Assembly: GCF_002161215.1 (NCBI RefSeq)
Contig: NZ_NFMB01000004.1
Location: 62,001-126,000, forward strand
Length of the DNA: 64,000 nucleotides
Direction of reading: 5' to 3'
DNA from: Flavonifractor sp. An10
GTDB taxonomy: Bacteria; Bacillota; Clostridia; Oscillospirales; Oscillospiraceae
Part shown: positions 55,356 to 64,000 of the stretch, in pieces
Position numbering within the stretch: the stretch's first letter is position 1
Layout: the number at the start of each line of letters is the position of its first letter
Program-made: the position numbers and the translations under genes
The notes under the pieces: generated by a model
Told to the model about the DNA's origin: nothing
Database searches by the model: none
Seen by the model: the letters and a program-made list of their open reading frames with translations, nothing else

Positions 55356-56090
55356 TCAGGCCAGGCCCAGCAGGCGGGCGGTGGAGGCCGTCAGGAGGCA
55401 CAGGGCCATGCCCACCCCGGTGGGGAGGGCGATGGACAGGGCCGTCCACTTGATGCTCCTGGTCTCCCTGGCGATGGTAAGGCAGGTGGTGGAGCAGGGC
55501 CAGTGGGCCAGGGAGAACAGCATGGTGCACACCGCTGTCAGCCACGTCCAGCCGTGGTCTGCCAGCAGGGTTTTCAGCGCCGCCAGGTTCTCGTATTCCA
55601 CAAGGCTCCCCGTGGAGAGATAGGCCATGATGACGATGGGAAGTACGATCTCGTTTGCGGGGAAGCCCAGCAGGAAGGCCATGAGGATCACCCCGTCCAG
55701 GCCCAGCAGGCGGGCGAAGGGGTCTAAAAAGCCGGTGCACCAGTTGAGGATGCTGTCTCCCCCCACCTGCACGTTGGCGCACAGCCAGATCAGCAGGCCC
55801 GCCGGGGCGGCCACCGCCGCCGCCCGCCCCAGCACGAACAGGGTGCGGTCCAGCACTGAGCGCACCACCACCTGCCCCACCCGGGGCCTCCGGAAGGGGG
55901 GCAGCTCCAGAGTGAAGGAGGAGGGCACCCCCTTCAGCACCGTGGCGGACAGCAGGCGGGAGGTCCAGAAGGTGAGCAGGATGCCCAGCAGGATCACCCC
56001 GGTCAGCAGCAGGGCGGCCAGCAGGCCCCCCGCCAGTCCCCCCGCTGTGCCCGCGAAGAACATGGAGAGGATTGCAATGAGGGTGGGGAA
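55356..56090 (-). pseudogene. feoB: 3' part of feoB, cut off by the insertion
   Basis: About 244 residues of the C-terminal half of ferrous-iron transporter B. From the junction the frame reads FPTLIAILSMFFAGTAGGLAGG; then the Gate/FeoB_C block ELPPFRRPRVGQVVVRSVLDRT, LLGFPANEIVLPIVIMAYL and a membrane tail. An internal ATG at 56063 could allow partial translation, but without the G domain it cannot act as FeoB. Removing the 6.9-kb element would fuse it in frame to the part at 62994-64000. Confidence 0.9.
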
Positions 56091-56114
56091 TGGGCCGCCA
56101 ACGAAAGGGCAAAC

Positions 56115-57410
56115 TCACAGCCGGCAGAGAGCCAGGGTCAGCGTCTCCCCGTCCCACCGGCACCCCTGGAGCATGGCCCGGCACAGGGCCCGCTGCTCCT
56201 CCCGGTTCAGCGCCGCCCCCGCCAGGGCTTCGTATTTCCCGGGGAGCTGCTCCAGCACCCGGGAGAGCACCAGCGCGTCGGTATCCGCGCCGCTGAGGTT
56301 CTGGCAGGGGCAGGCCCCCGTCCCGCCCCGCAGCTTGGCCCGGCAGATGTAGTCGTAGGCACCATCTTTCCGGGCCTTGGGCAGCATGGGAGAGCCGCAC
56401 CGGGCGCAGAGCAGCAGGCCGGACAGCAGGGCTTTGGGGTTGTGCACCGCCGGGGCGCGGCCCGGATTCAGCAGGGCCTGGGCGGCGACCCACGTCTTCC
56501 CCGGCACCAGGGCCGGGTGCCTCCCCAGGGCCACGATCCACCTCTCCACCGGGTTGCGGGGGGAGCGGCCGCCGGTGTAGTCCCGCTTCTGGTAGGCCAG
56601 CAGGCCCCGGCGGGGGTCGCAGTCCGGCCGGCCGAAGCACAGATCGGCCCCCCGCTCCGCGAACCAGGCCCAGGCGTCGCCGTCGGCGGCGCAGTACACC
56701 GGGTTCTGCAAAATCTCCCGCAGGCCCGCCGGGGAGAAGGGCTTCCCCTGCCGGTTGACCACCCCCATGTCCCCCAGGGCGGCGGGCAGGCCGGTGAGGC
56801 CCTGCCGGGCCAGAAACAGGCGGAAGATCTCCCCCGCCGCCCTCCATTCGGCGGGCTCGGGGACAAGGCGGCAGGCGGTGCGGCAGCGGCCGTCCACGAT
56901 CACCTCCGCCGCCCGCTCGGCCCGGAAGCCGGTGGGGGGCACGCCCCCCAGCCACCGCCCCGTCCGGGCCAGCAGGCGCATGTTGTCCCGTACCCGCTGG
57001 GCGATGGTCTCCCGCTCCAGCTGGGCGAACACGCTGGCGATGTACATCATGGCCTTGCCCATGGGGGTGGATGTGTCGAACCTCTCCCGGATGCAGAGGA
57101 AGCCCACCCCCCAGCCCTCCAGCTTCCGGATCAGATCGGCGAAGTCCCCCACGCTGCGGCTCACCCGATCCAGGCGGTAGCACACCAGGGCCTCCGGCCG
57201 CTCCCGGCGGATGTCCTCCAGCATCCGGCGGAACTGGGGCCGCTGGAGATCCCTGCCGGAAAAGCCCTCGTCCTCGTAGACGGCGATCTCCTCCGGCCCC
57301 ACGTCCGGATACTGGGCCGCCAGACAGCGGCGGCACAGCTCCACCTGGTTTTCCACCGACTCCCCTCGGTCGGTGAGCACCGATTTGCGGCTGTAGATGG
57401 CAAAGCGCAC
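56115..57410 (-). CDS. Serine site-specific recombinase (resolvase/invertase N-domain, recombinase domain, zinc ribbon)
   Basis: 431 aa from GTG 57410 (start MRFAIYSRKS, family-typical). Nucleophile Ser7 in AIYSRKSVLTDRGESVENQ; catalytic arginines in YRLDRVSRSVGDF; helix E after MGKAMMYIASVFAQLERETIAQRVRDNM. A recombinase domain follows (GVVNRQGKPFSPAGLREILQNPVYC), then a zinc-ribbon with CARCGSPM and a second Cys pair near ACPCQN. It is shorter than most large serine integrases. Its stop lies 25 bases from the left junction, inside the arm, as in serine-integrase elements. Confidence 0.92.
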   Translation of the reverse strand: MRFAIYSRKSVLTDRGESVENQVELCRRCLAAQYPDVGPEEIAVYEDEGFSGRDLQRPQFRRMLEDIRRERPEALVCYRLDRVSRSVGDFADLIRKLEGWGVGFLCIRERFDTSTPMGKAMMYIASVFAQLERETIAQRVRDNMRLLARTGRWLGGVPPTGFRAERAAEVIVDGRCRTACRLVPEPAEWRAAGEIFRLFLARQGLTGLPAALGDMGVVNRQGKPFSPAGLREILQNPVYCAADGDAWAWFAERGADLCFGRPDCDPRRGLLAYQKRDYTGGRSPRNPVERWIVALGRHPALVPGKTWVAAQALLNPGRAPAVHNPKALLSGLLLCARCGSPMLPKARKDGAYDYICRAKLRGGTGACPCQNLSGADTDALVLSRVLEQLPGKYEALAGAALNREEQRALCRAMLQGCRWDGETLTLALCRL

Positions 57411-57470
57411 GGTTTCCACCCCCGGTTTCCATCTGTACGCGGCGAGGGATGGGAAGTTGCGGGAGTTGTG

Positions 57471-57547
57471 GGCGCGCCGAGTCGTCGCGCCCCACAGGCC
57501 GGGCCGCCGCGCCCTACGCGTGTAGGGGCGCACAGCGTGCGCTCGCC
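57471..57547. repeat. Repeat island inside the element
   Basis: A third copy of the 25-base motif (57471-57495, inverted) followed by a GTAGGGGCGCACAGCGTGCG palindrome (57522-57547). Same combination as at 14642-14741. Confidence 0.75.
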
Positions 57548-57574
57548 TCACAGGGGCAGGCGGAAAAATTTCTC

Positions 57575-57603
57575 TTGACAGGAGAGGTTTGTTCGGATAA
57601 ACT
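57575..57603 (+). promoter_or_regulatory. Promoter and operator of the blaI/blaR1-like pair
   Basis: TTGACA, 17 bases, TAAACT. The -10 overlaps the palindrome AAACTAGTTT, and GGTTTGTTC (57587-57595) is repeated inverted as GAACAAACC at 57625-57633. These fit an autoregulated BlaI-type operator. Confidence 0.75.
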
Positions 57604-57652
57604 AGTTTTACAGAAAGGTTTCTTTGAACAAACCAACCAGGAGGACGAGCCT

Positions 57653-58021
57653 ATGGAGGAGTATAAGCTGTTTGACGCGGAGTACCGGCTGATGGATCTG
57701 GTGTGGAGCCTGGAGCCGGTGAACTCCACCGCCCTGGCCAGGCGGTGCGAGGAGGCCTTCGGCTGGAAGAAGTCCACCGCCTTCAACCTGATCCGCAAGC
57801 TGGGGGAGCGGGGCTTCCTGCAAAACGACCACGCCACCGTCACCGCCCTGGTGAAGCGGGAGCAGGTGCGCCAGTACGAGAGCGCGGCGGTGGTGGAGCG
57901 GGGCTTCGGCGGCTCCCTGCCCGCCTTTGTGGCGGCCTTTTTGAAGGGCAACAAGCTGTCCCGGGAGGAGGCGGAGGAGCTGCGGCGGATGATCGACGAA
58001 AGCGGGGCGCGCCATGACTAA
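57653..58021 (+). CDS. BlaI/MecI-type winged-helix repressor
   Basis: 122 aa, ATG after AGGAGG. Winged helix LFDAEYRLMDLVWSLEPVNSTALARRCEEAFGWKKSTAFNLIRKLGERGFL with the recognition helix KKSTAFNLIRKL, and a C-terminal dimerisation helix. The partner gene overlaps by 8 bases. In the BlaI/BlaR1 scheme the sensor protease leads to cleavage of this repressor after ligand binding. Confidence 0.9.
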   Translation: MEEYKLFDAEYRLMDLVWSLEPVNSTALARRCEEAFGWKKSTAFNLIRKLGERGFLQNDHATVTALVKREQVRQYESAAVVERGFGGSLPAFVAAFLKGNKLSREEAEELRRMIDESGARHD

Positions 58022-61000
58022 TCTGTTCCTCATGTTCCTCCAGATGAGCCTGATGGCCGCCGGGGTGACGGTGATCGCCCTGCCCCTGCGGTGGCTGTTC
58101 CGGCGGCTCCGGCTGCCCGCCCTGGCCTGTGTGCTCCTGTGGCTGGTGGTGGCCCTGCGGATGGTGCTGCCGGTGGGGATGGTCACCTCCTCCTTCTCCC
58201 TGATGGGGTGGCTCACCCCGGCGGTGGAGGAGCGGGTGGACGCCCTGGCCCGGATGGAACCGGCGGCAGAGGTGCCGCCCGCCGCTGTCCCGGCGGCGGA
58301 GCCCGCCGCCACGGCCCCGGCGTCAGAGAGCGCCGCCCCTGACTTTGTCATCCCCGAGCCGGAGCCCGCCCCGGAAACGCAGACCGAGCCGGAAGGGCTG
58401 TCGCTCCCGGACATCCTGGCCCGGGTGTGGCTGGCCGGTGTGATCGCGGTGTGGGGCTATACCCTGTTCTCCTGGCTGAGAACCCGTGCCCTGCTGTCCA
58501 CCGCCGTGCGGAAGGGCTCCATCCGGGAGGGATGGTGGTGGGAGAGCGACCGGATCCCCACCGCCTTCGTGTTCGGCGTGATCCGCCCCAGGGTGTACGT
58601 CCCCGCCGGGCTGGAGGGGGAGAACCTACGGTGGGTGCGCATACACGAGGAGAGCCACATCGAGCTGGGCCACTCCCGGTGTAAGCTCATCTATTTTCTG
58701 ATCATGGGCGTCCACTGGTTCAACCCGGTTCTCTGGCTGTCCTGGGTTCTGCTGGTGCGGGATCTGGAGCTGGAATGTGACGAGAGAGTGCTGAAATCCT
58801 GCGGCAGCCCCAGGGAGTACTCCGCCGCCCTGCTGGCCCTGGCCTCCCCCCGTCGGGGGCCCCTGCTGCCCCCCGGCTTTGGGGAGACAGGGGTGAAGGA
58901 TCGGATCAAGCGGGCCCTGAAGTGGAAACCCGCCGCCCGGTGGGCCGCGGTGGTGGTGGCGGTGCTGGGGACGCTGCTGGTGTTTACCCTGGCCGCCGAC
59001 CCCACCTTCCCGGACACCGGCCTGGACGGCCAGTACCCCACCCTGCGGGTTCATCTGGACACGGACGACACGGAGGGGGAGACGGTGGTGGACATGGGCG
59101 CGCCGGAGGACGCCGACTGGCCGGAGACGCTGCCCGAGACGGCGTGCACCGCCGCCACACCCAGCCCCTGGGTGGATCTCTACCTGGACAACGGGCAGTT
59201 CCCCGACCAGTGGGTCATGACCGAGTACCTGGTGGAGGACGGCACAGCCGTCAATCCCCGGGAGGTGGAGCTGTCCACCCAGCGGGCGGAAAACGGCTTC
59301 CTCCTGCGGGTAGAACCCCGGGAGGACGCCCCCGGCACGGGCATGGAGACCCGGGTGTACGTGCTCTCCTGCACCTGGCAGGCGGGGCTCCGCACCCACG
59401 AGCTGGAGTACGCCTTCCGGCTCACCCTGCCCTCGGTGCCCCCCGGCCCCCTGACGGAGCCGGTGGTGGTGGCGGGTGACCAGCGGGTGGACTTCACCGG
59501 GGACGCCTCCGTGACGGCGGCCATGGGAGAGACCCTCACCATCATCCACCCGGACGAGCCGGGAAGCTATATGCTGTACTGCGGCGATCCGGCCGGGCCA
59601 AGCGGCAATACGGCGCAGCTCGGGGCCGGGATGTGGAACAGTTCCGGCTGGGATTCACTGACCCTCGGATACCTTGCGGATGGTATGATGCGGGCCGCCG
59701 AGCCCGGTGATCCCCCTGCACAGGAACAGCACTATACCCTGTCCTACACCTGGGAGGACGGAAGCCACGAGAACTATTACTTTACGGTTTATGCCTACCA
59801 GCCCAAGCCGGAGTGGGACGCGGAAAACCTGCGCATCCGCTTCCCCGGGGAGACAGAGTGGGTCAATCTGGACACCCTGATCCCCGTGCCCGCCGAGTGG
59901 GCCAACCAGGATCTGGCGGGCCGGAATGAGGCCACCGACCTGGTGGGCCTGCTGTCCGGCACCGGCGGGATGGTGGACGGTCTCAACGGCTGGTTTGTGT
60001 TCACCATCGGCCCGGCGGCGGGCAACGCGGACACCTACGTCTACCGCACTCACGACGGGGGCCGCACCTGGACGGAGACGGGGCGGCCCACCATGGCGTC
60101 GGAGACGGAAACGGTACACTGGTTTCCCTCCTGCGCCTGTTTTGTGACCGACGAGATCGGATTCCTCGGCTTCAGCCACTTCAACGGCGCCCCCGTGTTC
60201 CGCACCACCGACGGCGGCGAGACCTGGGAACGGATCACCCTCCCCCTGTCCGACGAGAGCTGGGAGCTGAGCAGGATGTACGCCAGCGGCTCCGGCGTGC
60301 TGGCGGTGATGACAAACTACCGGAGCGGCGAGCCGGAGAGCGCCGTCCTGTTCAGCCGGGACGCCGGGGAGACCTGGGAGACCCTGGAGCTGCCCCAGAC
60401 CCAGTATGACAGCCTGGGCGAGCTGACGGTGGACCCCGACCAGTGGCTCAGCGCCCCCGTGCGCCTGCTGGGGGCCCTGCCCGACGGAAGCGCGGCCCTC
60501 TACGGCCTGAACCCGGAGGAGACCGGCCTGGACGGCCTGCTGGTGGAGTGGAACGGCAGCCTGTCCTATTTCTCCAATTTGACCTACAACACCGGCCCGC
60601 AGATCATGCTTTCCGGCCTGTCCCTGGACGACTACGACGGGGACGGGGCGGAGGAGCTGGCCGCCGCCACCTGCACCGGCACGGGCACCGGCATGTCGTC
60701 CTGGCGGCTGGATCTCTTTGAATGGCAGAACACCGGCGCCCAGTGGCAGCCCGCCGGGGCCCGGCTGGCCGACTCCCTGACGGAGGAGGAGCTGGCGGCG
60801 CAGATCAACGCCGCCGTGGACAGCACCTACGACCCGGAGAACAGGAGCTATCTGCTCCAGACCGGCGTGGAGACCTGGACGGCGGATCTCTCCTCGGAGG
60901 ACGCCGACGCGCCCCTGGGCGGCCCGGTGGTGTGCGGCTCCTGGTTCCAGTACGAGCCGGAGGAGCAGCTGGCGGTCTATGCCCTGCTCTATCCCCAGGA

Positions 61001-61781
61001 CATGCCCATGACGGCGGTGGCAGCCTATGCCTCCCACGTGAACTATGAGGACGGCCTTCTGGAGCTGAACACCGCCACCGGCACCCTTATGCCGGATGGG
61101 GACTACCCGCTGACCTTGCAACCCCCCGAAGCGCCCGCAACGCCCATCTCAGACCCGGAGGCCATCCTTCCGGATGAGCTGCCCTGGCCGTCCTATGAGG
61201 TGGAGGGGGAGTTCTGGCCCGACAACTACAACTGGCACGAGGCCCCGGTGAAGCTCATCGGCCTCTCCAATGACCGCGACCGCACCGCCGCGGTGTTCGC
61301 CTTTGACGGGTACGAAACAGGACAGGAGGGCCTGATGCTGTGCGTGGGCGGGCATCTGGCCTACTTCCCGGAGCTGACGTACCAGGTTACCTCCCAAGTG
61401 CACCCGGCCAATCCGGTGTGGGGGGATTTTGACGGGGACGGGGCGGACGAGCTGGCCGTGATCCCCACGCCCGGCACGGGCACCGGCGTCCTCATGCAGG
61501 ATCTGTACGTATTTGAGTGGGACGGGGCGGAGCTCACCCTGGGCGGGGCCATCGACGCCTATGAGGTGGCAGACATGGATCTGGGCCTGCCCGCCAACCG
61601 GGGAGCGGAGAGCATCGTCCTCTTCGGGGCGGAGGGGGACGCCCTCCAGGTGAGCATCGGCGTGACCGACGGCAGCATCTTCAACTATGTGGGGGAGCTC
61701 ACCGGCCCGGTGCGCTATGACGAACGGGGCCTGACCCTCGACCCGGCGGCGCTGGCCTACACGGAGGACACCAGCTTCTAG
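58014..61781 (+). CDS. BlaR1-like M56 metalloprotease with very large extracellular sensor
   Basis: 1255 aa. N-terminal M56 part: membrane helices (residues about 10-25, 35-65, 135-155), zinc motif HEESH (211-215) in WVRIHEESHIELGH, third ligand in LELECDERVL, and a further helix at about 305-325. Instead of a penicillin-binding domain, about 930 extracellular residues follow: beta-sandwich modules, Asp-box propeller repeats (THDGGRTW, TTDGGETW, SRDAGETW at about 677, 729, 780), and two FG-GAP-like Ca-binding repeats (DDYDGDGAEEL, GDFDGDGADEL at about 872 and 1139). The ligand is unknown. Confidence 0.88.
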   Translation: MTNLFLMFLQMSLMAAGVTVIALPLRWLFRRLRLPALACVLLWLVVALRMVLPVGMVTSSFSLMGWLTPAVEERVDALARMEPAAEVPPAAVPAAEPAATAPASESAAPDFVIPEPEPAPETQTEPEGLSLPDILARVWLAGVIAVWGYTLFSWLRTRALLSTAVRKGSIREGWWWESDRIPTAFVFGVIRPRVYVPAGLEGENLRWVRIHEESHIELGHSRCKLIYFLIMGVHWFNPVLWLSWVLLVRDLELECDERVLKSCGSPREYSAALLALASPRRGPLLPPGFGETGVKDRIKRALKWKPAARWAAVVVAVLGTLLVFTLAADPTFPDTGLDGQYPTLRVHLDTDDTEGETVVDMGAPEDADWPETLPETACTAATPSPWVDLYLDNGQFPDQWVMTEYLVEDGTAVNPREVELSTQRAENGFLLRVEPREDAPGTGMETRVYVLSCTWQAGLRTHELEYAFRLTLPSVPPGPLTEPVVVAGDQRVDFTGDASVTAAMGETLTIIHPDEPGSYMLYCGDPAGPSGNTAQLGAGMWNSSGWDSLTLGYLADGMMRAAEPGDPPAQEQHYTLSYTWEDGSHENYYFTVYAYQPKPEWDAENLRIRFPGETEWVNLDTLIPVPAEWANQDLAGRNEATDLVGLLSGTGGMVDGLNGWFVFTIGPAAGNADTYVYRTHDGGRTWTETGRPTMASETETVHWFPSCACFVTDEIGFLGFSHFNGAPVFRTTDGGETWERITLPLSDESWELSRMYASGSGVLAVMTNYRSGEPESAVLFSRDAGETWETLELPQTQYDSLGELTVDPDQWLSAPVRLLGALPDGSAALYGLNPEETGLDGLLVEWNGSLSYFSNLTYNTGPQIMLSGLSLDDYDGDGAEELAAATCTGTGTGMSSWRLDLFEWQNTGAQWQPAGARLADSLTEEELAAQINAAVDSTYDPENRSYLLQTGVETWTADLSSEDADAPLGGPVVCGSWFQYEPEEQLAVYALLYPQDMPMTAVAAYASHVNYEDGLLELNTATGTLMPDGDYPLTLQPPEAPATPISDPEAILPDELPWPSYEVEGEFWPDNYNWHEAPVKLIGLSNDRDRTAAVFAFDGYETGQEGLMLCVGGHLAYFPELTYQVTSQVHPANPVWGDFDGDGADELAVIPTPGTGTGVLMQDLYVFEWDGAELTLGGAIDAYEVADMDLGLPANRGAESIVLFGAEGDALQVSIGVTDGSIFNYVGELTGPVRYDERGLTLDPAALAYTEDTSF

Positions 61782-61796
61782 CAGGCCCGCAGACGC

Positions 61797-61831
61797 AAAA
61801 GCACCGGGACGCGATGCGTCCCGGTGCTTTT
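61797..61831. terminator. Bidirectional terminator
   Basis: AAAAGCACCGGGACGC / GCGTCCCGGTGCTTTT between the BlaR1-like gene and the convergent TSCPD gene, whose stop codon overlaps it. Confidence 0.9.
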
Positions 61832-62081
61832 ACGCTTCCTTCTTATACTGCTTGAGGGCCTGGGCCAGCTGGTCGGGGCAGGAGGTGGGCTTGAAGCCGC
61901 ACCGGATGCCGTCCAGGCGGCGGATGGCCTCGTCCACGTTCATGCCCTCCACCAGGCGGGAAATGCCCTGGAGGTTGCCGCTGCACCCGCCCAGCACCTG
62001 GAAGGAACGGATCACGCCGTCCTCAACCTCAATCTGCATCTGCTGGGAGCACACGCCCCTGGGGCGGTAATTGATGGTCAT
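61830..62081 (-). CDS. TSCPD-domain protein, TIGR03905 family
   Basis: 83 aa. Cys-rich small protein with YRPRGVCSQQMQIEVEDGVI, VLGGCSGNLQGISRLVEGM and IRCGFKPTSCPDQLAQAL. The TSCPD block also occurs at the C-terminus of vitamin-B12-dependent ribonucleotide reductases; the stand-alone family has no proven function but the four Cys suggest metal or redox chemistry. AAAGGAG precedes the ATG. Divergent from the TetR gene. Confidence 0.88.
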   Translation of the reverse strand: MTINYRPRGVCSQQMQIEVEDGVIRSFQVLGGCSGNLQGISRLVEGMNVDEAIRRLDGIRCGFKPTSCPDQLAQALKQYKKEA

Positions 62082-62114
62082 GTCGGTTTCGCTCCTTTTC
62101 TGGTTTCGGGGGAT

Positions 62115-62167
62115 ATCATAACATATCTTTTCCAGGATTGCAATTCCTCTGCACGATGTGGTATAAT
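62115..62167. promoter_or_regulatory. Face-to-face divergent promoters sharing one -35 hexamer
   Basis: Rightward: TTGCAA (62138-62143), 18 bases, TATAAT (62162-62167) for the TetR gene. Leftward: the same palindromic TTGCAA, 17 bases, TATGAT (complement at 62115-62120) for the TSCPD gene. Polymerase could use only one at a time. Confidence 0.75.
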
Positions 62168-62212
62168 GTTCCCTAGCGGGTTTCTATGGAATCCCCGGAG
62201 GAGGTGAGGCGG

Positions 62213-62776
62213 ATGGCCCCCAGCACCAAGCTGGCTCTGGCGAACGCCCTGAAGGCGCAGCTGCAAAAAAAGTTCCTGGACGACATCACGGTCAAGGAGC
62301 TGGTGGAGGCCTGCGAGATCAACCGCCAGACCTTCTACTACCATTTTCAGGACATCTACGACCTGCTGCGCTGGCTCCTGGAGCACGAGACGGGGGAGGC
62401 CCTGGGCGGGGCGGAGGACTGGCAGGCGGCCCTGCTGGACGCCTTCCGCTACATCCGGGACAACCACATGGTGATCTATCACATCTACCGCTCCGCCGGC
62501 CGGGACAACCTGCTGGACTGCCCCTTTTACAGCCTGGCCCGGGCCATTGCCTCCGCCAGCCTGGAGCGGGAGGCCCGGGAGCTCCGCCTGCCGGAGGCGG
62601 ACGCCGACTTCCTCACCGACTTCTACATGTATGCCATCGCCGGGGTCATGATCGGCTGGTTCGCCGGCGACATGCGGGAGGAGCCGGAGGAGTTGGTGGG
62701 GCGGCTGTCCCGCCTGCTGGAGGGGGAGTTCCGCCGCTCGGCGGAGAAATTTGCCCCAGAGGAGACGGCTGTCTGA
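62213..62776 (+). CDS. TetR/AcrR-family regulator (DhaS-like C-terminal domain)
   Basis: 187 aa. ATG 62213 is set by AGGAGG upstream. HTH: STKLALANALKAQLQKKFLDDITVKELVEACEINRQTFYYHFQDIYDLLRWLLEHE, ending in the classic FYYHF. The C-terminal part (FYSLARAIASASLEREA and YMYAIAGVMIGWFAGDMREEPEEL) resembles the TetR_C_8/DhaS group. It may repress its own and the shared divergent promoter. A strong terminator follows. Confidence 0.88.
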   Translation: MAPSTKLALANALKAQLQKKFLDDITVKELVEACEINRQTFYYHFQDIYDLLRWLLEHETGEALGGAEDWQAALLDAFRYIRDNHMVIYHIYRSAGRDNLLDCPFYSLARAIASASLEREARELRLPEADADFLTDFYMYAIAGVMIGWFAGDMREEPEELVGRLSRLLEGEFRRSAEKFAPEETAV

Positions 62777-62792
62777 CCGCACAAAGCACCAG

Positions 62793-62826
62793 GGCCCCCG
62801 GCCCGCCGTTCGGCGGGCCGGGGGCC
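62793..62826 (+). terminator. Terminator of the TetR gene
   Basis: GGCCCCCGGCCCGCC / GGCGGGCCGGGGGCC with a four-base loop and TTTTT. Confidence 0.9.
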
Positions 62827-62873
62827 TTTTTGCGCCCTCCGGCGCATATCCTGTGGGGGAAGGAGGCGGTTCC

Positions 62874-62993
62874 GTGGGGAAAAACAGACCCCGGCGGGTG
62901 GTCGTGGAGCCGGCGGCGCCGGAGGATCCGGCGGCCCGGCTGGAGGTGCTGGAGGCCCTGCTGGCGGGGGTCAATTTGCCCTTCGGCCGGAGG
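62874..62993 (+). CDS. Short frame at the element's right end
   Basis: From GTG 62874, seven bases after a perfect AAGGAGG, about 40 codons (MGKNRPRRVVVEPAAPEDPA, then ARLEVLEALLAGVNLPFG) reach the right junction. In the integrated state the frame continues antisense into feoB; in a circular form it would continue into the left end. The strong ribosome site and basic-then-acidic helical make-up suggest a real small protein, perhaps a directionality factor, but nothing proves this. Confidence 0.4.
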
Positions 62994-64000
62994 GGGGAAA
63001 CGCCCGTTGCAGGGCACAAAGCTGTTGGTGAGAATGGCGATGAGCCGCTCCCGGGGGGAGTCGATGATGCGGCAGCCCACCACCCCGGCGGCGTTGCAGC
63101 CGAAGCCCATGGACATGGTCAGCGCCTGTTTGCCGCAGGCCCGGGCCTTCTGGAAGGCGTGATCCAGGACGAAGGCCACCCGGGGGAGGTAGCCCAGATC
63201 CTCCAGCAGGGTGAACAGGGGGAAGAAAATAGCCATGGGGGGCAGCATGACGGACACCACCCAGGCCAGCACCCGGTACACCCCGTCCACCAGGGCGCCG
63301 AGGAGCCAGGCGGGGGTGTTGAGCCAGGCTAACAGCTCTCCCAGCCGGTCTCCCGCCCAGAACAGGGCGGTGGAGAGAAGCCGGGAGGGCACATTGGCCC
63401 CCGCGATGGTGAGCCACAGCACCCCGGCCAGCAGCAGGAGCATCAGCGGCACGGCGGCAATGCGGCTGGTGAGCAGCCGCTCCGCCCGCCCCCGCAGCGC
63501 CCCGCCGGGGCCGTCACCACGCCGGCGGCCGCCTTCTCGGCGGCGGACACCAGGGCGGCGGCGCACGCCCCCAGCCTCCGGCTCCACCCCGCCCGGCGCA
63601 GCCCGTCCGGGCCTGTTCCACGGCCCGGGACAGGGCTCGTCCATGGGCTCCGGCAAAGCTGCGTCCCCCTCCAGCAGGCGCAGGGCCGCCTGCCGGGCGG
63701 GGAGCCGTCCCCCCAGCCGCCCCTCCAGCAGGGGCCGCAGGGAGGAGACGGCAAACTCCACCGCCGGCGGATAGCGCACCTCCATGGCCCGGGGCGGCTC
63801 CGGGGCGGAGACGGTCTCCTCCACCGCGTCCAGCAGCTCAGACAGGCCCTCCCCCCGCCCTGCCGAGGCACCCACCACGGGCACCCCCAGCCGGGCGGAC
63901 AGGGCCTCCAGATCCACCCGGATGCCCCGGCGCTCCGCCTCGTCCAGCAGGTTGAGGCACACCACCGTCCGGGGCATCAGCCCGATCACCTGGAGGGCCA
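62994..64000 (-). pseudogene. feoB: 5' part of feoB, cut off by the insertion (also runs off the window)
   Basis: Visible: end of the G domain (QVIGLMPRTVVCLNLLDEAERRGI, then VPVVGASAGRGEGLSELL), a linker, then membrane helices from LTSRIAAVPLMLLLLAGVLWL to FVLDHAFQKARACGKQALTMSMGFGCNAAGVVGCRI and the junction at ILTNSFVPCNGRFP. The next bases belong to the element. Between about 63500 and 63660 the frame reads Arg/Gly/Pro-rich, whereas another frame gives a plausible helix (RRLGACAAALVSAAEKAAAG), suggesting small compensating indels or sequence error. The true start lies beyond base 64000. Confidence 0.85.

Follow-up and report, generated by a model that had tools for sequence, protein, structure and literature searches.

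What happens to ferrous-iron uptake when the transporter gene feoB is cut in two by a recombinase-bearing element? This question is raised by a 64,000-nt stretch of Flavonifractor sp. An10 (contig NZ_NFMB01000004.1, positions 62,001 to 126,000; hereafter the window), in which a 6,909-bp element carrying a large serine recombinase (LSR) gene interrupts the minus-strand feoB. The finding is real and well beyond chance. The explanation that we favour, with modest confidence, is that of a domesticated, excisable and feoB-specific intervening element that keeps feoB off until it is removed; the good order in which this lineage has kept both halves of the gene points to an element whose excision can restore it.

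Structure of the split gene

A reading of this DNA made from the sequence alone (the sequence-only reading) had proposed an element of about 6.9 kb that splits feoB between two shared copies of GGGGAA and whose removal restores the gene exactly. The positions proved correct (Table 1), and the repeat unit measures 6,909 bp. The break separates the last codon of PCNGRFP, for proline, from the threonine codon that opens TLIA, and without the element the flanks join in frame to ...NSFVPCNGRFP-TLIAILSMFF, a conserved FeoB motif. PCNGRFP-TLI is uninterrupted at this point in all eight intact feoB genes compared, seven from the same genus and one from the same family. Judged by eye from the aligned junctions, crossover probably takes place at the TT of the core. 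The element ends bear inverted arms, TTTGCCCTT ... AAGGGCAAA, in the window and in the two sister species described below, and the ends of more distant relatives are similar.

The element carries five genes, and no phage or conjugation genes were recognised among them. Domain searches upheld the identities first proposed for the products, namely a serine recombinase, a BlaI-like repressor, an M56/BlaR1-like membrane protein, a TSCPD protein and a TetR regulator. The recombinase stop codon stands 24 bases from the core copy at 56085-56090, and a feoA-like gene, recognised by eye in translation, precedes the 5' part of feoB.

Both feoB frames are open and conserved, which would suit two halves that function as a split protein without excision. 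However, the first start codon lies eight codons into the 3' frame (open reading frame 55356-56063) with no ribosome site visible by eye, and a long unrelated tail is added to the 5' half; such a protein seems to us quite improbable.

Among 20 genomes of the genus, the subfamily of the split feoB occurs in 18, one of which (G008) is cut by a contig end. Of the remaining 17, 10 hold an intact feoB and seven an interrupted one, broken at PCNGRFP-TLIA in G000, G005, G011 and G014 and at a second position, site B, in G001, G010 and G015.

Table 1. Features of the feoB element and its flanks (window positions), with KN examples at other loci
Feature	Position	Strand	Basis or remark
feoB 3' part (FeoB_C, Gate)	55356..56084	-	codon 469 onward in G009 numbering; Pfam domains
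Right-hand core copy GGGGAA, part of attR	56085..56090		TTCCCC on the feoB strand; aligned junctions
attR arm of the element, with GAAAGGGCAAAC on the + strand	56091..56114		aligned junctions
LSR, coiled coil missing	56115..57410	-	GTG start at 57410 inferred from G005 alignment
blaI-like promoter, TTGACA-17-TAAACT	57575..57603	+	promoter search
Operator-like palindrome 1, GGTTTNTTNNNANAAAC	57586..57602		conserved in three species
Operator-like palindrome 2	57617..57634		conserved in three species
BlaI-like repressor (Penicillinase_R)	57653..58021	+	Pfam
M56/BlaR1-like membrane sensor, 1,255 residues, HEESH motif, long C-terminal region with BNR match	58014..61781	+	Pfam
TSCPD protein (TIGR03905)	61830..62081	-	family search
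TetR-family regulator	62186..62776	+	Pfam
Short open reading frame with good ribosome site, kept in G005 and G014	62874..62993	+	frame continues into antisense feoB
attL: element arm TTTGCCCTTCGG and left-hand core GGGGAA at 62994-62999	62960..62999		aligned junctions
feoB 5' part, extends past window end	62994..64000	-	GTPase domain above Pfam cut-off
KN examples	L127:7131-7337, L120:975-1181, L133:1813-2019	-	profile search

Probable shared inheritance and selection in three species

The same five genes, in the same order and at the same feoB codon, are found in two further Flavonifractor species, G014 and G005, which together with the window form the trio discussed below. Identity to the window is 88% (G014) and 76% (G005) for the recombinase and 90% and 84% for the 3' part of FeoB. 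Both rpoB and feoB group the trio as one clade, and between the window and G014 a single 7.2-kb alignment begins upstream of feoB, crosses the junction and enters the element. In the recombinase, the neutral length per codon was 0.38 for the window, 0.51 for G014 and 1.63 for G005; the corresponding values were 0.34, 0.53 and 1.00 in rpoB and 0.75, 0.79 and 1.52 in the 3' part of feoB. The element has diverged together with its hosts, and it was most likely in place before the three species split.

Separate and recent acquisition by each species, with the selection described below predating insertion, is very unlikely. The mobility of the recombinase clade would favour it, as would the TetR gene, which dissents in placing the window nearer G005 than G014. 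Against it, divergence between the species is about as great in the element genes as in rpoB, or greater; the recombinase, feoB and rpoB all agree on the window and G014 as the closest pair, and the three recombinases form one clade.

Selection was followed with branch codon models; pairwise dN/dS was not relied on because high GC distorts it. In the 3' half of feoB, omega was 0.122 in the trio and 0.113 in nine intact relatives (twice the log-likelihood difference, 2dlnL, 0.1). An omega of 1 was rejected in the trio for both halves, with 2dlnL of 142 (3') and 104 (5'), and both halves are under purifying selection there. The recombinase itself has an omega of 0.22. No stop codon was observed in the trio halves, whereas neutral simulation gave means of 6.6 (window), 5.3 (G014) and 8.5 (G005), with minima in 300 runs of 1, 0 and 2, respectively, indels being ignored.

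A recombinase without its coiled coil

Resolvase, Recombinase and zinc-ribbon domains all score above cut-off in the window recombinase. R9, S11, R80 and R83, which we take to be the catalytic serine and arginines of LSRs, are invariant in the 18 recombinase sequences aligned. The coiled-coil region comprises only 24-26 residues in the trio, compared with 99-130 in 52 of 64 relatives and at most 72 in the other 12, so that the window protein is an otherwise clear LSR from which the coiled coil is deleted. Its predicted structure (pLDDT 81, pTM 0.48) has short helices only in this region, and the nearest folds to the model are the Bxb1 and SPbeta-type integrase complexes.

According to the available text of one study, the LI integrase of Listeria without its coiled coil recombined all four site pairs tested, whereas the wild-type enzyme was inactive on attL x attR, and the deletion also cost site selectivity (PMC3783163). 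With its coiled coil lost, the trio recombinase therefore probably needs no recombination directionality factor (RDF) or a reduced one, and because the LI deletion also lost selectivity, directionality here may be loose in both senses.

A recombinase clade that targets feoB

A profile built from six feoB-linked recombinases was used to select 79 named loci as the best of 423, a sample that by this choice leans to close relatives. A feoB piece lies within 6 kb in 61 of these best 79; 11 lack one, counted as such where at least 2.5 kb were present on both sides, and seven end too soon. In a quick tree of 89 rows with a dozen long branches, made of the 79 loci, seven viral loci, G222, G005 and the window, one clade of 71 (SH-aLRT 100) contains every one of the 65 feoB-linked recombinases, together with five undecided members and one not at feoB. 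The label changes twice on the tree without the undecided rows and seven times when undecided is counted as a state. The usual target of this LSR clade in Clostridia is feoB, which the sequence-only reading had no means of seeing. The window recombinase belongs to the clade both by its insertion at PCNGRFP-TLIA and by its placement in the tree.

Most hosts of the clade belong to Oscillospiraceae, Lachnospiraceae or other Clostridia; the few from odd phyla are metagenome bins that are perhaps misbinned. The aligned stretch of 58 feoB 3' parts contains no stop codon, and 55 of them align from residue 1-2 to 229 or beyond (exceptions L110, L167 and L173). Outside chromosomes, a plasmid search with the left-junction and recombinase DNA returned no match, and a phage search with the recombinase protein matched 1,035 records, none of which reaches 60% identity; the best, in a Terrisporobacter phage, has 39%. 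Viral contigs hold the recombinase at seven loci, one of which (L188) has a feoB piece; a search of these contigs for the empty-site pattern found none. As a separate observation, the recombinase L180:3066-4238 lies inside the feoB clade yet not beside feoB and may have changed its target.

To judge from sequence identities, some elements of the clade have clearly moved recently: L115, L116 and L119 have recombinases with 98.5-98.8% identity but FeoB 3' parts with only 59-60%. Over 1,653 pairs, recombinase identity and FeoB 3' identity are correlated at 0.55. Eight of the nine elements outside the trio with both ends fetched span 2.7-10.1 kb and the ninth, L120, about 10.8 kb, sizes from which the frequency of large elements does not follow because the flanks were limited to 10 kb; larger ones exist, of about 35 kb in G222 and more than 20 kb in G011. 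The cargo is cassette-like, each element having a single metabolic or defence gene or a few of them: L127 carries malate dehydrogenase and malic enzyme, L133 type I restriction-modification, L145 a urea transporter, L167 a CoA transferase and a sulfatase-domain protein, and L170 diaminopimelate-pathway enzymes. For many clade members, the plain reading is a mobile element disrupting feoB.

A second insertion site in feoB

Some 40 codons upstream of the window site, feoB is broken at TM(C/S)MGFGCN (site B) in twelve loci. Other serine recombinase families occupy this site, which is found among others in L076, L078, L080, L081, L082, L083, L085, L094 and L095. Recombinases were extracted from nine of the twelve loci: seven are 42-61% identical to one another and 20-27% to that of the window, and those of G010 and G015 are of another type, 80% identical to each other. 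The finished genome G222 has an element at each of the two sites, so that its feoB is spread in three in-frame pieces over about 76 kb (C1:1114180-1190094; 3' end in L077), and L120 looks the same, with both sites occupied. A hand count over 230 genomes of the family gave 114 with the subfamily, 100 intact, 12 interrupted and two (G217 and G223) dropped as contig-edge fragments; G204 and perhaps G121 among the interrupted ones are on short contigs, and weak feoB pieces may be missed in this count because the table ends at low scores.

The sensor pair and its operator-like sites

The recombinase gene and the blaI-like gene are divergently oriented. BlaI/BlaR1 systems, whose biology we take as the comparison for this pair, likewise place a Penicillinase_R repressor beside an M56 membrane peptidase with HExxH. 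In contrast to BlaR1, the M56 protein has a long C-terminal region with BNR and weak repeat matches, and the pair is divergent to a recombinase. Because Pfam reported no penicillin-binding (beta-lactam-binding) domain in it at E 0.001, it is called BlaR1-like and not BlaR1.

The operator-like pattern has three matches in the window, where none is expected, and in the whole genome it occurs only at the blaI-like promoter (two sites, one of them read on both strands), although looser sites elsewhere would be missed because the pattern was drawn from these sites without mismatches. A reversed control pattern has two matches in the whole genome. The recombinase may be repressed through the shared region. 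In the window (57440-57560) this intergenic region exceeds that of G005 and G014 by some 100 bp and contains a GC-rich insert that resembles an inverted repeat.

A more specific and speculative possibility is a ligand-gated DNA switch, in which the BlaR1-type peptidase would sense an outside signal, the repressor would leave its operators, the factor-independent recombinase would excise the element and the ferrous-iron transporter would be turned on. Equally tentative is the corollary that the element is a domesticated descendant of a mobile, feoB-landing LSR clade, run by a sensor peptidase and not by a developmental programme.

The KN protein

A profile built from five feoB-clade elements detected a protein of about 60-70 residues beginning MKKNRIxNIxIH..., here called KN. 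Its 27 rows represent 26 distinct loci, because L087 and L110 are the same contig, and every one belongs to the feoB clade; the 12 site-B loci and the 18 sister-clade rows gave none. Of the nine complete elements outside the trio, eight carry KN; it is absent from L170, whose coiled-coil region is short as well. KN has no match above cut-off in Pfam or NCBIfam and a best E of 0.049 in PHROGs, and its predicted structure consists of two helices (pLDDT 87). Its size, position and company make it a candidate RDF, as a guess. The short open reading frame of the trio lies at the same element end, with a start and a finish that resemble KN by eye, and is possibly a remnant of it.

Relation to known systems

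The comparison with skin in sigK, made in the sequence-only reading, is apt for a possible mechanism. As far as the available parts of these sources go, skin of Clostridioides difficile is likewise a case of gene splitting by an LSR in Clostridia, with attL and attR bearing inverted arms, and CD1234 is the RDF required for its excision, which is linked to sporulation (PMC5025042); the feoB element differs in its LSR without coiled coil and in carrying a sensor pair. The gin element in gerE of Bacillus cereus ATCC10987 is likewise a non-phage, gene-splitting element with serine recombinases, a helper protein (GirX) and precise restoration (PMC5595907). However, gin comprises 31 genes and three recombinases in a sporulation gene with demonstrated timing, whereas the feoB element has one recombinase and five genes in a metal transporter gene and its excision is inferred. 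The SP-beta prophage in spsM also leaves a split gene that is reconstituted by an LSR, but is a full active prophage (PMC4191935). The yin/yabG system is also among the nearest published ones. As in skin and gin, feoB is split in frame with a precise join, and the purifying selection suggests that its halves are kept functional while interrupted.

Feo genes have been reported as island cargo in the available text of PMC6070778. The papers searched appeared to contain no description of an LSR element in feoB, preprints and most subscription papers being outside reach. An LSR element in a coding gene is a known kind; the double hot spot in feoB, the sensor-linked cargo, the coiled-coil loss and the selection set this one apart.

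Proposed pathway and its weighing

An LSR would have inserted the element at a conserved feoB codon pair in the ancestor of the three Flavonifractor species. In the integrated state FeoB would be cut before its second gate, and for this reason the transporter should be off. The recombinase would then recombine both junctions and restore feoB exactly, probably with little or no help from an RDF. Control by the divergent BlaI/BlaR1-like pair most likely extends to both its own promoter and, through the shared intergenic region, the recombinase; the membrane sensor would thereby trigger excision. The idea of a genetic switch in the sequence-only reading gains from the purifying selection on the trio halves, their lack of stops and the conserved recombinase and attachment arms.

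Several observations weigh against an excisable, domesticated element. Excision, like its trigger, any reversibility and its control by the sensor, is what we infer from the sequences. The promoter search detected no recombinase promoter in the divergent region, and the KN profile does not recognise the short open reading frame of the trio. On the branch that leads to the trio, the 3' half has a raised omega of 0.351. Compared with intact genes (0.137), the 5' half is relaxed in the trio (0.290; 2dlnL 32), and its omega on the leading branch is 0.230. In rpoB, omega is 0.085 in the trio, 0.031 in three relatives (2dlnL 21) and 0.082 on the leading branch; the relaxation of the 5' half is comparable to this rise, and part of it may be feoB-specific. 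The window's 5' part is also rich in indels along a stretch of the variable linker that connects GTPase and membrane domains, with the frame still open, and the absence of stops is not decisive for G014 alone, where the neutral minimum was 0. Two further long FeoB proteins are encoded in the same genome (contigs C15 and C9). A second intact feoB had been raised as an objection to the join; these two are paralogues and not second copies, because they are only 28% and 22% identical, respectively, to the window's 3' part over the aligned stretch, and the subfamily of the split feoB is single copy in the genome.

The relaxed 5' half and the paralogues, together with the recent moves and varied cargo of relatives, favour an ordinary small mobile element that disrupts feoB, a loss made tolerable by the paralogues, with excision serving the element alone. 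The selection on the trio halves after insertion and the trio recombinase without its coiled coil argue against it, and we consider it unlikely, though it deserves serious weight.

Significance

The intervening elements met in the literature lie mainly in sporulation genes; here the interrupted gene is a metal transporter of gut Clostridia, targeted repeatedly at two neighbouring sites by unrelated recombinases. In one lineage the element looks domesticated, by shared descent, by selection on both halves and by a recombinase altered in the part that controls direction. The system supplies many natural attB/attP pairs, a natural LSR that lacks the coiled coil and, in KN, a candidate directionality factor outside known families, and it would show at little cost whether gut commensals control iron uptake through DNA excision.

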